DNA of 47,504 nucleotides from Deltaproteobacteria bacterium (GTDB taxonomy: Bacteria; Desulfobacterota; Binatia; Binatales; Binataceae). The translations under genes were made by a program, and so were the position numbers. The first letter of the stretch is position 1. Each line of letters opens with the position of its first letter. Where the stretch lies: contig JAKAVN010000008.1 of assembly GCA_021827495.1 (NCBI GenBank), positions 1-47,504 of the forward strand, written 5' to 3'. This document shows, in pieces, positions 6,556-20,321 of this stretch. Below the pieces are notes generated by a model. It was not told where the DNA came from. It did not search any database and saw only the letters and a program-made list of their open reading frames with translations.

Positions 6556-6838
6556 CCACACCGGCACGCGGCGCCGCATCGCCGCGAGCTGCACCACTAT
6601 CGCCCCGTTGAACAGCGCTCGGAACGCAACCCCGGACAAAATTATCCTCGCGCCGAACATGCTCGACGGCGCGCCGCAGGCCGCCAACCGCACGCCCGCC
6701 AGTCTCTCTCTCATGCCGAGGTTGCGCTGACATCTGTAACGGGCCGCGTAGCGCCTGCGCCCAGAGTGCACTGGCCGCTCAAGGGCAGCCGATGAAGGCC
6801 CCCTTGCGCGCACTGCCGACACATATAGAATCCACCAA
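6556..6838. other. Gap without convincing gene
   Basis: GC-rich spacer after the VTT gene. The only long frame here runs antisense (6400-7173) and has the Arg/Ala/Gly-rich composition of a mirror frame. I see no RNA gene or repeat. Confidence 0.3.
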
Positions 6839-7162
6839 ATGCCTTCATGGGTGCGGACGGCCCGTAGTCCGGCCGGCGCGATACTTTGCGCGATGCTGGT
6901 CGCGATGCTGGTGTTCGCGACGATGCCGCGGGCCCGCGCACCCCGTCCCGCAACCCATCCCAGCCTGCAAGTCCGCGTCTCGGGTAAGCATGCCAAGCGC
7001 GGCGGTCTCACGCTGGCGTGGGCCGCGGGCCGTTCGGGGTGGCGTCCGCCGCAGCCCGAGAACGTATCGAGCGCGGCCGATGACGCGAACGGCTTGGCGC
7101 CGACCCCGCTAGCGTCGCTTTCGCCCCGCGCACCTCCCCTTTCACCCTGCGCATCGGTCTGA
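6839..7162 (+). CDS. Hypothetical small exported protein
   Basis: A 107-codon frame upstream of the metal-efflux operon. It starts with a plausible signal peptide (AGAILCAMLVAMLVFATMPRARA) followed by a Pro/Ser/Ala-rich, low-complexity tail ending in PLSPCASV. No domain is recognised. The ATG has no clear ribosome-binding site, and a TATAGAAT about 10 bp upstream could be a -10 box. Small secreted proteins do accompany metal-efflux operons, but the composition could equally be a chance frame in GC-rich DNA. Confidence 0.33.
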   Translation: MPSWVRTARSPAGAILCAMLVAMLVFATMPRARAPRPATHPSLQVRVSGKHAKRGGLTLAWAAGRSGWRPPQPENVSSAADDANGLAPTPLASLSPRAPPLSPCASV

Positions 7163-7209
7163 TTGAACGCCACGCGCGCGCGTCAACCGGCGCGCGCGAC
7201 GGGAATATT

Positions 7210-7241
7210 CCGGTTTAGGCCCGATCCGGTTTAGGCCCGAT
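7210..7241 (+). repeat. Two tandem 16-bp repeats upstream of the efflux operon
   Basis: CCGGTTTAGGCCCGAT occurs at 7210-7225 and again at 7226-7241, followed by a partial third copy (CCGG). The pair lies 60-90 bp before the first efflux gene and could be a tandem regulator site or a slippage duplication in the promoter region. Confidence 0.6.
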
Positions 7242-7300
7242 CCGGCGCGGATGCTGCCGCAGGGCCGCGCGCGCGGCCGGGAGAAAGGGAGTTCGGCATC

Positions 7301-8797
7301 ATGGTTTGGCGAATGCGCCGCTTGCATCCTCGCGCAGCGGCATTGCTTGACTCGTTGCTGGCAGTGATGTTTCTGCTGTCGGCGGCGAACAGCGTGCGCG
7401 CCGCTGGCTCCTCCACGACAATTCCCGCGCCACAGGCGGCGCCTCCCATCGTACATCCAGCGGCCCCGGCCGGAGTCATCGGCGCGCAGGCCCTGCCCCC
7501 GCTCAAGCTGCCGCAGCACTTTGAGAACGACCCGCAGGTCGTAGCCGGCCGGCTCAACGGCCTCATCGAGCAGGCCGTGGCCAACAATCCCGACCTGCTC
7601 GCGGCACACTACGCGGTCGAGGCCGCGGCCCATCGCGTGCTCCCGGCCGGGATGCCTGACGATCCCTACCTGGGCTACCGGATGAAGGATCTGCCGACGA
7701 CCTTCTCGATGACGCGCGAGAACGCGACCGAGAAGCAGATCGAGGTCAGCCAGCGTTACCCCTTCCCGGGCAAACTTGCCCTGCGCCAGGCGATCGCCGA
7801 CAAGCAAGCCGACGTGGTGCGCGCCGACCTGCGCGCCACGCTGCTCCACCTGGTAACCGCGGTGCGCTTCGCCTTCGCCGACATTTTCGCGATCGACAAG
7901 GACCTCCAGCTCGCGCTCGAGCAGCAGCGCATGCTGCGCGACCTGCGCGCCATCGCGATTTCCAAGTACCAGCTCGGCCCGGGCCTGCAACAGGACGTGC
8001 TCAACGCCGACGTCGCGCTGGCGCAGATCGACACCCAGCTCATCGACCTGGCGCGTAAACGCCAGACCCGGCTGATCCGGCTCGAGGTGTTGCTCAACCG
8101 GCCCGCGGTCGAGGTCCCGGCCCTGGGCACGCTGCCGCCGGCCGCGCTGCAATTTCCCACCGCGCAGCTCGAAGAGATGGCGCTGGCGGCCAACCCGGAA
8201 ATCCAGCACCTGGGCCGCGCGGTCGAGCGCGACACGCTCAACCAGCGGCTGGCCGGGCGCGCTCCGCTGCCCGACATTCTGTTTTACGCCGCCTACGGCT
8301 CGCGCAACGACCATCCGGGCGAGACCACGACCTCAGCGGGCAAGACCACGACCACCGGCGCAGCGGTCCGTCCCGACCTAATCACCGGCCAGATCATGCT
8401 CGACATTCCGGTCTTCTACTTCTCCAAGCAGCGCGAGCAGCTCTACGAAGCGCAGGCGACGCTCCGCCGCACGCGCGCGCGCATGGCCGCGGCGCGCGAT
8501 ACGGTGCTCGGCGCGCTGCACGACATGCTGGCGCGCCTGGCGGAGCACGAGCAGGTGGCACGCTCCTACGAGCGCGAAGTCATCCCGCTGGCGAGCAGCG
8601 AGGTCGCCGCGGCGATCAGCGCCTACCGGGTCGACCGGGTCGATTTTCTGACCCTGCTCGCCGCCCAGGACAACCTGGACAAGTACCAGGCCGCATACTG
8701 GCGCAACGAGGCCGATCGCTTCCGCGACCTTGCGGAAATCGACGAGGTGACCGGCGCCGCGCCGCCCTCGGAGGCGGCCGCGGGCGCCATCCGATGA
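7301..8797 (+). CDS. TolC/CusC-family outer-membrane efflux protein
   Basis: A 498-residue outer-membrane channel of a tripartite efflux pump. The N-terminus carries a basic start, a hydrophobic segment (LLDSLLAVMFLLSAANSVRA) and a signal-peptidase-like AxA site. The body shows the repeated long amphipathic helices of TolC proteins, with NNPDLLAAHYAVEAAAHRV and, in the second repeat, AANPEIQHLGRAVERDTL. A long low-complexity Thr/Gly loop lies near residues 340-360. There is no lipobox Cys, unlike E. coli CusC. A GGGAGAAAGGGAG stretch precedes the ATG. It overlaps the next gene by 4 bp (ATGA), so it is the first gene of the pump operon. Confidence 0.9.
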   Translation: MVWRMRRLHPRAAALLDSLLAVMFLLSAANSVRAAGSSTTIPAPQAAPPIVHPAAPAGVIGAQALPPLKLPQHFENDPQVVAGRLNGLIEQAVANNPDLLAAHYAVEAAAHRVLPAGMPDDPYLGYRMKDLPTTFSMTRENATEKQIEVSQRYPFPGKLALRQAIADKQADVVRADLRATLLHLVTAVRFAFADIFAIDKDLQLALEQQRMLRDLRAIAISKYQLGPGLQQDVLNADVALAQIDTQLIDLARKRQTRLIRLEVLLNRPAVEVPALGTLPPAALQFPTAQLEEMALAANPEIQHLGRAVERDTLNQRLAGRAPLPDILFYAAYGSRNDHPGETTTSAGKTTTTGAAVRPDLITGQIMLDIPVFYFSKQREQLYEAQATLRRTRARMAAARDTVLGALHDMLARLAEHEQVARSYEREVIPLASSEVAAAISAYRVDRVDFLTLLAAQDNLDKYQAAYWRNEADRFRDLAEIDEVTGAAPPSEAAAGAIR

Positions 8798-17004: not shown

Positions 17005-18291
17005 ATGATTCAGAAGGCGGTCATTCTTTCCACCGGCGACGAGCTCACCAGCGGCCGGGTGGTCGACACCAATTCCAACTACCTTGCCGACAAGCTGGCC
17101 GAAATCGGCCTCGACCTCGCGGCCGTGCTGACCGTGGGCGACGTCCCCGAGCGGCTGGAATGGGCATGGAAGACCGCGATGGCGATGGCGGACGTGGTCA
17201 TCTCGACCGGCGGGATCGGGCCCACCGCCGACGACCTGACCAACGAGACCGTGGCACGCATCACCGGCAGAAAGCTCGTGCGCGACCAGGAAAGCGTCGA
17301 CCATATGAAACGCATCTTCGCGTCGATCAACCGCGTGATGCCCGAGAACAATCTCAAGCAGGCCGACTTACCCGAAACCTCAGAGGTGATTCGCAACCCG
17401 CTCGGCACCGCGCCGGGCTTCCGCATGGCGGTGCCGCAGGCCGCCGGCCACACCTGCCATCTGATCGTGCTGCCCGGTGTGCCGCGCGAGATGAAACCGA
17501 TGATGGAGAACAGCGTCATTCCATGGCTCAGAAAGAACCGCGGCAGCGACACGATTTACGCCGCGCGCGTGTTCCAGACCTTCGGCATCAGCGAATCGGG
17601 ACTCGATGAGGCCGTCGCCGGACTGATCAAGCCCGAAGAGGCGCGCGTCGCCTTTCGCGCGAGCTTCCCGCAGATTTCGCTGCGCGTGGCGGTCGAGGGA
17701 AAGCCGGGCGAGGCCGAGCGCAGGCTCGCGGAGCTGTCCGAGCGCGTACGCGGGCGAATCGCGAACTTCATCTACGCCGAGGGCGACGCCTCGATGGAGG
17801 AAGTGGTCGCCAAACTGCTCACTGAGCGCGGCTTCAAGCTGGCGCTGGCCGAGTCCTGCACCGGCGGCCTCATCGGCCATCGTCTGACCAACGTCCCCGG
17901 CAGTTCTAACTTCTTCAAGGGCGACTTCGTGGCCTACTCCAACGACCTCAAGACCGGCCTGCTCGGCGTGCGCGAGGAGACGCTCAAGCGGCATGGCGCG
18001 GTGAGCGAGCAATGCGTGCTCGAGATGGCGGCCGGGGCGCGCGCGCGGGCCGGCGCCGACCTCGCGATCGCGACCTCGGGCGTCGCCGGACCCGGCGGCG
18101 GCACACCCGAGCATCCGGTGGGCACGGTGTGTATCGCGCTGGTCGGCGACGGGACGCAGGCCTCACGCCGCTACCAGCTGCGCGGCACGCGCGACTGGAT
18201 AAAGATTCTCACCGCGCAGGTCGCGCTCGACTGGCTGCGCCGCTACGCGCTGGGACTGCCGATCGGCGAATCGGCGCTGTTCCGCCGCTAG
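17005..18291 (+). CDS. cinA: CinA-family protein (competence/damage-inducible, NMN deamidase domain)
   Basis: A two-domain protein of 428 residues. The N-terminal half is the MoCF/COG1058 domain (AVILSTGDELTSGRVVDTNS, VVISTGGIGPTADDLTNETV, LIVLPGVPREMKPMMENSVI), linked to ADP-ribose pyrophosphatase activity. The C-terminal half is the PncC-type nicotinamide-mononucleotide amidase (LALAESCTGGLIGHRLTNVP, FVAYSNDLKTGLLGV, SGVAGPGGGTPEHPVGTV). Together they recycle pyridine nucleotides. I start it at the ATG at 17005, preceded by AAGGGAG; the frame is open further upstream, but that part overlaps pgpA and lacks homology. All key motifs are intact. Confidence 0.95.
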   Translation: MIQKAVILSTGDELTSGRVVDTNSNYLADKLAEIGLDLAAVLTVGDVPERLEWAWKTAMAMADVVISTGGIGPTADDLTNETVARITGRKLVRDQESVDHMKRIFASINRVMPENNLKQADLPETSEVIRNPLGTAPGFRMAVPQAAGHTCHLIVLPGVPREMKPMMENSVIPWLRKNRGSDTIYAARVFQTFGISESGLDEAVAGLIKPEEARVAFRASFPQISLRVAVEGKPGEAERRLAELSERVRGRIANFIYAEGDASMEEVVAKLLTERGFKLALAESCTGGLIGHRLTNVPGSSNFFKGDFVAYSNDLKTGLLGVREETLKRHGAVSEQCVLEMAAGARARAGADLAIATSGVAGPGGGTPEHPVGTVCIALVGDGTQASRRYQLRGTRDWIKILTAQVALDWLRRYALGLPIGESALFRR

Positions 18292-18354
18292 GCGACCGAC
18301 GCGGGTACGTGCGGAACGTACTTAGATAGATCAGCGGGACTAAGTGAGTAAATT

Positions 18355-18408
18355 GTTATATAGGGAACATTATATTAGTTATATAGGCGATATTAGTTAT
18401 GTAGGCGA
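18355..18408 (+). repeat. AT-rich 18-bp tandem repeat upstream of the Crp/Fnr gene
   Basis: TATTAGTTATATAGGCGA (18373-18390) is repeated once with a single change (18391-18408). A partial third copy, GTTATATAGGGA, lies 23 bp upstream at 18355. The AT content contrasts sharply with the flanking DNA. Position and phasing suggest a multi-site operator or the promoter of the regulator that follows. Confidence 0.6.
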
Positions 18409-18481
18409 GGGACATTATCGTGTTAGGAGACGAACTTGCGATCCGCTACGCAACAAGCTAGCGTCAGGCCGGATCGGTGAG

Positions 18482-18497
18482 AAGCTATTAATAGCTT
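18482..18497. promoter_or_regulatory. Perfect 16-bp palindrome abutting the GTG of the Crp/Fnr gene
   Basis: AAGCTATTAATAGCTT is its own complement and ends one base before the presumed GTG start at 18498. It occupies the place of a ribosome-binding site. It may be an operator for the dimeric regulator itself (autoregulation) or an RNA hairpin controlling translation. Confidence 0.55.
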
Positions 18498-19256
18498 GTG
18501 ATTTTGAATGCCTCAGTAAAAGGCGCCGGGCATAAAAACATTCTAAAGACATTAAAAGGACTCAAGGATTTCACCTGGCTGCGGGCGCCGCAAATCAAGA
18601 GACTTGACGACGCGCTGATTGTTACCAAAGTCGAACGGCGCGGGACGATCGTCGATGATCGCATGGCGGCTGAATCCCTCTACGTGTTGTTGTCGGGAGT
18701 TGCACGCGTTACCTGCCGGAACCGCAAGGGTGAACGCCCGCTGGTGAACATACTTGCACCGGGAATCATTCCGGTCTTTCCGCCACCGGTAGCGGGGGTT
18801 GCCTACGCCTTGCGGTGCGAAGCGATCAGCGATTGCCAGATTGGGACCATCGAAGTGAACAGGTTCACGGACATTTGTCTCGGGGTCAAGTGGCCCGACT
18901 TCAGGCGGTTGGCGCTAAGTTGTGTCGGGCGCTGGGATTTGATCGAACTGAGATGCGCCAATTTGATGAGTTACAGCCTTATGGAACGGCTAGCTATAAC
19001 GCTGATGGAGATGGCTGAGACCTTCGGCGCCAGAGATTCCCAGGGGACTCGACTGACGATCTCGCTCCGGCATCGTGACCTCGCGGAATTGCTAGGGGCC
19101 TCGCGGTCACGGGTGACGGAATTCATGAAGGAATTCTCGCGCCTGGGCATGATTGAAGGAACGGCCAAGGGGCTAATAGTAAAGACCGAACGGTTGGAGA
19201 AATTTCTTTCGCGGCCAGCTCGTGCCGTGTCACTCCCGACGCAGTCCAGTCCGTAA
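18498..19256 (+). CDS. Crp/Fnr-family transcriptional regulator
   Basis: A 252-residue regulator. Residues about 20-130 form a cyclic-nucleotide-binding-type beta roll: RLDDALIVTKVERRGTIVDD, then SLYVLLSGVARVTCRNRKGE, then LVNILAPGIIPVFPPP. A dimerisation helix follows. The C-terminal winged HTH is clear (SLRHRDLAELLGASRSRVTE, then FMKEFSRLGMIEGTAKGLIV). The N-terminal Cys cluster of FNR is missing, and I see no typical cAMP-contact RxS pattern, so the ligand is unknown. Codon use is more AT-rich than the neighbours, suggesting acquisition by transfer. The GTG start has no Shine-Dalgarno and touches a perfect palindrome; 18-bp repeats lie about 90-125 bp upstream. It is isolated from neighbours by gaps on both sides. 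Confidence 0.85.
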   Translation: MILNASVKGAGHKNILKTLKGLKDFTWLRAPQIKRLDDALIVTKVERRGTIVDDRMAAESLYVLLSGVARVTCRNRKGERPLVNILAPGIIPVFPPPVAGVAYALRCEAISDCQIGTIEVNRFTDICLGVKWPDFRRLALSCVGRWDLIELRCANLMSYSLMERLAITLMEMAETFGARDSQGTRLTISLRHRDLAELLGASRSRVTEFMKEFSRLGMIEGTAKGLIVKTERLEKFLSRPARAVSLPTQSSP

Positions 19257-19289: not shown

Positions 19290-19451
19290 CTTCAACACGC
19301 GCAACGGCGCAGCGATCGCGCGGGCCTTGTCGGCGCAAAGGGCCTTGTCGGCGCAAAGATTGATCACGCAGTTCGCGATGATCGCGTCGACCGCGGCGTC
19401 GGGCAGCGGGATGTTTTCGATCTCGTCCTTTAAGAACGGGCACTCGGCCGG
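19290..19451 (-). pseudogene. Remnant of an arsenite methyltransferase (ArsM-like) gene
   Basis: A short minus-strand frame reads FLKDEIENIPLPDAAVDAII, then ANCVINLCADK, ending in PLRVLK. This is the motif block of SAM-dependent arsenite methyltransferases (ExExIPLPDxSVDVxISNCVINLxxDK...FRVLKPGG). Only about 50 of the usual 270-350 residues remain; the frame leaves homology after RVLK and has no SAM-binding motif I. An in-frame 18-bp duplication (19322-19357) doubled CADKAL/CADKAR. This is a dead fragment. Confidence 0.72.
19322..19357. repeat. 18-bp tandem duplication inside the arsM remnant
   Basis: GGGCCTTGTCGGCGCAAA occurs twice without a gap (19322-19339 and 19340-19357), identical in all 18 positions. 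It adds six codons in frame to the remnant, so it looks like a recent replication-slippage event. Confidence 0.8.
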
Positions 19452-19613: not shown

Positions 19614-20321
19614 ATGCAACGACGCGAACAGATGACGCTGTGGGAACGCCTGTACCTGGGCGAAGTGTTGCGCGGGCTGGCCACCGTCAACGCCCACTTC
19701 GTGCGCAACCTGGCCTTGCATATCGCCCACGCGATCGGCTTTGCGAAGGCGCGCAAGGCGATGACCACCGTGCAGTACCCCGACGAGCGCAAGCCCTACG
19801 CGGAGGGTTACCGCGGGAGCCATCGCCTGACCCTGCGCCCCGACAGCTCCGTGCGATGCACGGCGTGTTTCCTGTGCGCCACCGCCTGCCCTGCCCAGTG
19901 CATCTATATCGAGGCTGGCGCGCATCCCGACCCCGCGGTCGAGAAGTTTCCGCTGCGTTACGAGATCGACACGCTGCAATGCATCTATTGCGGGCTGTGC
20001 GTCGAGGCCTGCCCGTGCGACGCAATCCGGATGGACACCTACGTCCATCCGCGCGTCTGGGGCTTCGATCGCAAAGACTTCATCGAAACCAAGCAGCAGC
20101 TAATGCATCGCTCGCGCGTGCTGGCCGCCGAGGGCCGCGAGGGCAACATGCGCGAGATGCTTCAATGGTACGACGAGCAGTCGCGCGCGGTGTACAACCC
20201 GCTGCGCCCCGAGCTCAAGACCTACACCGAACGCGACCAGCCGCCCGCATGGAAGGACGACGGCGCCGGCGCGGCGCCCGAAATTCCGGCCATCGACCGG
20301 CATCACCTCACCGGCAAATAA
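19614..20321 (+). CDS. nuoI: NADH-quinone oxidoreductase subunit I (NuoI)
   Basis: A 235-residue ferredoxin-like subunit that carries clusters N6a and N6b in the hydrophilic arm of complex I. Both 4Fe-4S motifs are intact: CTACFLCATACP (Cys82, 85, 88, 92) and CIYCGLCVEACP (Cys123, 126, 129, 133). The N-terminal MTLWERLYLGEVLRGL segment is the usual membrane-docking helix, so the ATG at 19632 may be the true start; neither ATG has a good ribosome-binding site. The C-terminus carries about 60 residues beyond the core, as in other long NuoI proteins. No other nuo gene is near. It is probably an orphan copy, able to serve complex I encoded elsewhere or another ferredoxin-linked complex. Confidence 0.9.
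   Translation: MQRREQMTLWERLYLGEVLRGLATVNAHFVRNLALHIAHAIGFAKARKAMTTVQYPDERKPYAEGYRGSHRLTLRPDSSVRCTACFLCATACPAQCIYIEAGAHPDPAVEKFPLRYEIDTLQCIYCGLCVEACPCDAIRMDTYVHPRVWGFDRKDFIETKQQLMHRSRVLAAEGREGNMREMLQWYDEQSRAVYNPLRPELKTYTERDQPPAWKDDGAGAAPEIPAIDRHHLTGK

Follow-up and report, generated by a model that had tools for sequence, protein, structure and literature searches.

A conserved dyad as the predicted operator of a Crp/Fnr-family regulator in the Binatota

Given the crowding of repeated and palindromic elements in front of a Crp/Fnr-family regulator gene, we asked which of them, if any, serves as an operator, what the regulator might sense and control, and how the gene came to lie where it does. 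The original prediction had described an AT-rich tandem 18-mer with a partial third copy, and a perfect palindrome next to the start codon, as operator-like signals of an imported, self-regulated sensor whose targets it left undefined. We analyzed the whole stretch of 47,504 nucleotides that contains the gene (the window), which is contig C2 of a genome (G000) of 3.63 Mb in 264 contigs. The features that had been pointed out are real but were weighted in reverse: what holds up is an operator-like signal, probably self-regulatory, and it lies in the partial copy rather than in the 18-mers or the palindrome. The gene quite probably encodes a self-regulated one-component Crp/Fnr sensor with the operator TGTTATATAGGGAACA, that is, a dimeric protein of a Binatota subfamily that would bind its own promoter region at this dyad and control its own expression (Table 1).

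Table 1. Features at the regulator locus (window coordinates).
Feature	Position	Strand	Basis or remark
Proposed autoregulatory operator TGTTATATAGGGAACA, core GTTA-N6-GAAC 18355-18368	18354..18369	.	matrix rank 1 in window
18-mer copy 1	18372..18389	+	rank 9 with 20-mer matrix; < 10 bits with 16-mer matrix
18-mer copy 2	18390..18407	+	rank 2 with 20-mer matrix; < 10 bits with 16-mer matrix
Perfect 16-bp palindrome AAGCTATTAATAGCTT	18482..18497	.	abuts GTG 18498
Crp/Fnr-family regulator, 252 aa, GTG start	18498..19256	+	Pfam, phmmer, Foldseek
Recognition helix motif S202-R-S-R-V-T-E208, codons	19101..19121	+	GlxR GASRETV alignment and orthologue alignment
Central arsM fragment	19290..19436	-	tblastn with ArsM of G002

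The regulator and its genomic setting

The protein carries HTH_Crp_2 at 45.2 bits and cNMP_binding at 29.3 bits, each exceeding its Pfam cut-off, and so combines the cNMP_binding-type beta-roll and the C-terminal Crp-type HTH that define the Crp/Fnr superfamily. With phmmer, it matched 46 PDB sequences at E <= 1, including CRP and GlxR structures, and the best structural matches of its model in Foldseek were GlxR (E 3.5e-13) and mycobacterial CRP; the model is of moderate quality (pLDDT 72.4) and its domains superpose poorly (TM <= 0.41, rmsd about 16), so that these matches are informative at the family level only. None of the named Crp/Fnr equivalogs of NCBIfam scored above its curated cut-off (29.5 bits at best, where 274 are required), and in the tree the regulator and its orthologues form an eight-row clade (support 100/99) on a long branch (0.73). 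The regulator has its two-domain fold family in common with E. coli CRP, GlxR and mycobacterial CRP, whose RE(T/M)VGR helix and TGTGA half-site are replaced here and whose cAMP pocket residues are missing. In the phmmer alignment, whose gap placement in the loop is uncertain, equivalents of the cyclic-nucleotide pocket Glu and Arg-Ser are absent; G89 is followed by Ile, and the corresponding orthologue loop, PGM[IV]PGFPPPVPG, has Met or Val. The phosphate-binding cassette of cAMP receptors of the CRP/Clr/GlxR type, with its Gly-Glu and Arg-Ser, is lacking in this alignment. FNR proteins, for their part, hold an N-terminal cysteine cluster for [4Fe-4S]; no such cluster is present, as originally noted, the first Cys of the regulator being residue 73. 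By comparison, CooA is defined by its heme with axial ligands, and HcpR by hcp as core target together with heme/NO sensing. Four cysteines (C73, C107, C113 and C153) are invariant across the regulator and seven orthologues, and three of them are kept also in two paralogues of 33-35% identity. The sensor pocket, without cyclic-nucleotide residues, would have its signal read by these cysteines (redox or metal) or by way of another small ligand.

The gene lies between cinA, which ends at 18291, and a NuoI-like ferredoxin gene at 19614, accompanied by an AT-rich stretch and the arsM fragment. As the original prediction had supposed, its composition departs from that of the flanks: the GC content is 0.456 in the intergenic region and 0.56 in the gene, GC3 is 0.656 vs 0.83-0.89 in eight neighboring genes, and the mean codon log-adaptation is -0.19 vs 0.22 to 0.50 in nine neighbors. 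The arsM remnant, likewise foreseen, is 63% identical to residues 130-172 of the 275-aa ArsM of a same-genus genome (G002). There, cinA and arsM stand tail to tail, and cinA and the NuoI-like gene are non-adjacent both in G002 and in G001; on this gene order, the fragment is a trace of an older cinA-arsM neighborhood. The remnant itself contains another tandem 18-mer, two copies of GGGCCTTGTCGGCGCAAA at 19322-19357, which repeats six of its codons.

Orthologues, 46-56% identical to the regulator over the full alignment (49-57% in local matches), were found in 9 of 41 genomes of the family and, at E <= 1e-45, in 4 of 395 genomes of the phylum, all four from that same family. Two other same-genus genomes yielded no orthologue (best match 40%). 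Among the MAGs with orthologues are Candidatus Binatus soli and others named "Deltaproteobacteria", which places the organism in the Binatota. A wider contig scan, in which only two peptide patterns were used, returned no relative from a single protein and eight loci from an alignment. Codon usage, the broken synteny and the absence from the two same-genus genomes fit an accessory gene inserted at a rearranged cinA/arsM junction. The donor may belong to the same family: since all orthologues found come from one family, the import that had been suggested is unproven as far as an outside origin is concerned. Moreover, a paralogue in the same genome (L003) has a GC content of 0.566 too, so that regulators of this group may tend to be GC-poor.

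A conserved dyad and a covarying recognition residue

The element that had been taken for a partial third copy of the 18-mer (about 18350-18370) is TGTTATATAGGGAACA. Of the nine orthologous copies examined at first, eight are preceded by a single short conserved island, GTTACATAGATAAC and variants of it, in surroundings that are otherwise dissimilar for G022, G023 and g15, and a GTTA-N6-YRAC-like site is located ~90-117 bp before the residue-16-equivalent codon in eight of these nine upstream regions. We built a 20-mer matrix from eight orthologue sites, with the window excluded and six g15 sites down-weighted, and within the window positions 18352-18371 rank first; with a 16-mer matrix, likewise derived from orthologue sites without the window, the operator scores 21.2 bits, compared with 15.1 for the next-best place in the window. 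These scores are to be read knowing that the window site had already been seen when the regular expression used to find the training sites was written. The window site sits about 75 bp farther from its gene than the orthologue sites do. An orthologue found later (G436, L143) has its top matrix match, GGTCACGTCGATAACC, at -94, a score reached by 1 of 300 shuffles; under a stricter dyad test this site shows three mismatches, and 43 of 300 shuffles are equally good. No operator-like site was seen upstream of the G018 orthologue, no significant one was seen upstream of the paralogue L003, and no sigma-70-like promoter was found. The recurrence in front of orthologous genes suggests that the site is probably an operator serving autoregulation.

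The site also has counterparts throughout the class. Upstream of 53 Crp-like loci, the dyad TGTYACNNNNGTRACA (TGTYAC-N4-GTRACA) occurs with at most one mismatch at 19 (0.045 expected from shuffles) and with at most two at 30 (1.14 expected), counts to be read with the knowledge that the pattern was composed after some sites were known, that the loci are related and that the two paralogues of one locus (L110) share a single site. Matches starting past query residue 60, those with fewer than 150 bases upstream, duplicates and L085 had been excluded before counting, and the dyad was found in none of the control stretches inside genes. Two further loci deserve mention: L034, where G022 has its second regulator, contains the overlapping dyads TGTTATTTTTGTCACA and TGTCACATAGATAACA some 83-92 bp ahead of that gene's residue-16 codon, and L084 (PMOH01000234.1, 4.1 kb) is a Myxococcota-labelled MAG contig with a Pro-type paralogue very near those of G027, G032 and G016, which could reflect transfer or mis-binning.

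The dyads vary together with one residue of the recognition helix. In the regulator, S204 aligns with the place of E. coli CAP Glu181. Where this place holds Gln, operator base 4 is C in all 36 half-sites of 18 loci, the search pattern being neutral at that base; where it holds Pro or Ser, T is present in 20 of 34 half-sites and at least once in 13 of 17 loci (<=1 mismatch), a count drawn from 35 of 54 rows with L014 omitted, its helix being missing. Among five later loci examined, out of six retrieved from the 15 matches listed, both Gln-type ones have C in every half-site (four of four), and a T is present in each of the three Pro-type ones. In the tree, the Gln-type sequences fall into two groups, so that the pairing reflects a small number of independent changes. 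Coevolution of residues 180/181 with operator bases is already known, residue 181 being tied there to the next base, A6 (PMC1274295); with the principle in print, the gain lies in a new example and not in a new kind.

Several described systems resemble this arrangement in part. Sinorhizobium meliloti Clr (Crp-Fnr cluster G) recognizes the palindrome GTNNCNNNNGNNAC / HGTYHCNNNNGRWACA through a helix whose S194-R195-x-K197 contacts bases, and in which CAP E181 is not conserved (PMC10127613); the window regulator has S202-R203-S-R205 in the equivalent place. Many sites of the clade fit the Clr core GTNNCNNNNGNNAC (for example, TGTCACTTAGGTGACA), and the window core, GTTATATAGGGAAC, differs at one specified place (T for C). 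Clr N199 and R200 are, however, T and E in the window regulator, and Clr binds cAMP and cGMP via G85, E86, R95 and S96, whereas the Glu and Arg-Ser equivalents are missing here in the phmmer alignment. HcpR2 of Clostridia and Thermotogales combines Pro at 181 with the non-CRP site GTAACnnnnGTTAC (PMC1274295) but differs in half-site order, which is GTTAC here. The Gln-type paralogues are matched by CooA, with a 16-bp palindrome of TGTC half-sites, TGTCGGCNNGCCGACA (PMC545781); CooA is a heme CO sensor, while the window regulator is of the Pro/Ser type.

Could the dyad instead be bound by a paralogous Crp/Fnr protein with the same recognition-helix type, as part of a cross-regulated or hierarchical network? 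A GASRPR[VI]TEHL helix is common to several paralogues, and there are several such regulators per genome. At L110 (G027:C32:114800-118500), two divergent Crp-like paralogues stand on either side of one common dyad, TGTTACAAAAGGGACA, forming a natural two-regulator switch, and in three genomes (G022:C9, G027:C32 and G016:C27) the orthologue forms a tandem pair with a paralogue (34-36%) belonging to the same group. Yet the paralogues of the regulator's own genome, L002 (Gln type, site TGTC) and L003, would have to differ in preference or lack a site of their own, and the type of site tracks each regulator's own helix, so that we consider binding by a paralogue rather unlikely.

The tandem 18-mers and the start-codon palindrome

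The predicted binding of the regulator to TGTTATATAGGGAACA leaves the more conspicuous elements to be accounted for. The two 18-mers are identical at 17 of 18 positions, and shuffling the intergenic region (206 bp) 20,000 times under a Markov model never produced a tandem like theirs, so that the repeats exist, beyond chance, as had been claimed; they are not the conserved operator. As operator, the 18-mers were rejected in favor of TGTTATATAGGGAACA on their 16-mer matrix scores (Table 1). We found no further match to the 18-mer in the window with up to three mismatches, and a scan of the 3.63-Mb genome, which the original prediction had proposed, gave four further matches to the 15-base core TTAGTTATRTAGGCG, each with two mismatches, no more than the four of a reversed control. 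Compared with the operator, 18-mer copy 1 retains the left half and the centre and has lost the right half, and both 18-mers are probably tandem degraded duplicates of TGTTATATAGGGAACA.

The palindrome is exact, perfect and placed directly before the GTG as described, and the genome has no other copy of it, even with one mismatch allowed. That it is another genuine operator, or a hairpin acting in translation, seems improbable to us. The window holds four perfect 16-bp palindromes, vs a shuffle mean of 2.5, and at this near-chance count only the position of AAGCTATTAATAGCTT is notable; for any such palindrome in the shuffled intergenic region, P was 0.006, noted after the fact. Within 40 bp of the start of nine orthologues, the longest perfect palindrome is 6 bp, and AAGCTATTAATAGCTT does not fit TGTYAC-N4-GTRACA. 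The RNA folds into a 6-bp hairpin at this place, but with a z of only -1.69 and 10 of 200 shuffles as stable. Missing upstream of the nine orthologues and not rarer than chance in the window, AAGCTATTAATAGCTT was rejected as an operator; by the original prediction's own rule, that the motifs should recur upstream of close orthologues, the palindrome half of that prediction falls. It is probably a product of chance or a weak leader hairpin.

Least probable of all, in our view, is that the AT-rich repeats and the near-match arose by chance in an AT-rich intergenic stretch that has no operator: the 20-mer score of the window site is equalled in 19 of 1000 shuffles of this stretch and its dyad test gave P 0.017, yet the site is the top match in 47.5 kb, at the place and of the type expected for the clade, and relatives share the dyad as counted above.

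Candidate targets and wider meaning

In the regulator's own genome, the strict pattern matches at two places, the regulator itself and contig C200. There (L119), the site at 7538-7553 precedes by ~170 bp a series of small genes (DUF3309, CsbD and a 23-codon reading frame read by eye), and a second matrix match at 6706-6721 lies ~180 bp before a ferritin-like gene (6905-7453) that is frameshifted in the assembly or a pseudogene. Both matches reach at least 18 bits and flank the ferritin gene; 1 Mb of Markov sequence contained one match of that strength, and on this basis we estimate the probability of another so near at about 0.002. Of eight other ferritin loci, in g15 and other relatives, none has a comparable site pair bar L137 of G018 (15.9 and 15.2 bits), the sole one with matches of at least 15. 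These matrix matches narrow the targets, previously left undefined, to one candidate: the ferritin/CsbD/DUF3309 stress cluster, with its two further sites, would be the best second target in this genome, in an arrangement unconserved in most relatives.

Definition of a regulon by pattern counting was weak, barely above the reversed control. Beyond the self sites, strict-pattern matches in eight orthologue-bearing genomes numbered nine, vs seven for the control; across 41 genomes of the family, 10 of 16 non-self matches fell in the nine orthologue-bearing ones (binomial P 0.00055), as did 8 of 21 control matches. Four of these 10 (L086, L088, L090 and L099) and none of the other six lie outside kept ORFs, with ORF filters that differed between the two sets. 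At L086, the site is downstream of lipoprotein and DUF3309-like genes, and DUF3309-like frames were recognized in L086 and L088 by expression match. Ferritin co-occurs with the regulator in 8 of 9 regulator-bearing genomes vs 14 of 32 others (Fisher P 0.024), a weaker association over the 41 genomes than the first nine had suggested. Proteins of the stress type are also encoded near orthologues: BON and a holin-X-like protein just below the cut-off (26.1 vs 28.4 bits) beside the G018 orthologue, and a Usp near that of G022.

The Binatota are described as a yet-uncultured phylum (PMC8262859), and in the open-licence literature we found no earlier account of CsbD with DUF3309, of Crp/Fnr proteins at TGTCAC/GTGACA, or of a Binatota regulon, operator or Crp. 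Family, fold and principle are already known; operator, clade and candidate target are new. It is tempting to speculate, although we hold the full scenario to be doubtful, that a Binatota Crp/Fnr subfamily expanded while keeping a self-binding operator, the CAP-181 residue and operator base 4 changing together (Gln with TGTC, Pro/Ser with TGTT) and duplicated regulators thus becoming insulated, and that the member in the window, rather than binding a nucleotide, senses redox or metal via C73, C107, C113 and C153 and governs a mobile stress module (ferritin, CsbD, DUF3309) that tends to accompany the regulator. For this regulator group of a yet-uncultured phylum, the analysis offers a first predicted operator and a small set of targets that can be tested, and its paralogues form a natural series whose DNA specificity seems to track a single residue of the recognition helix.
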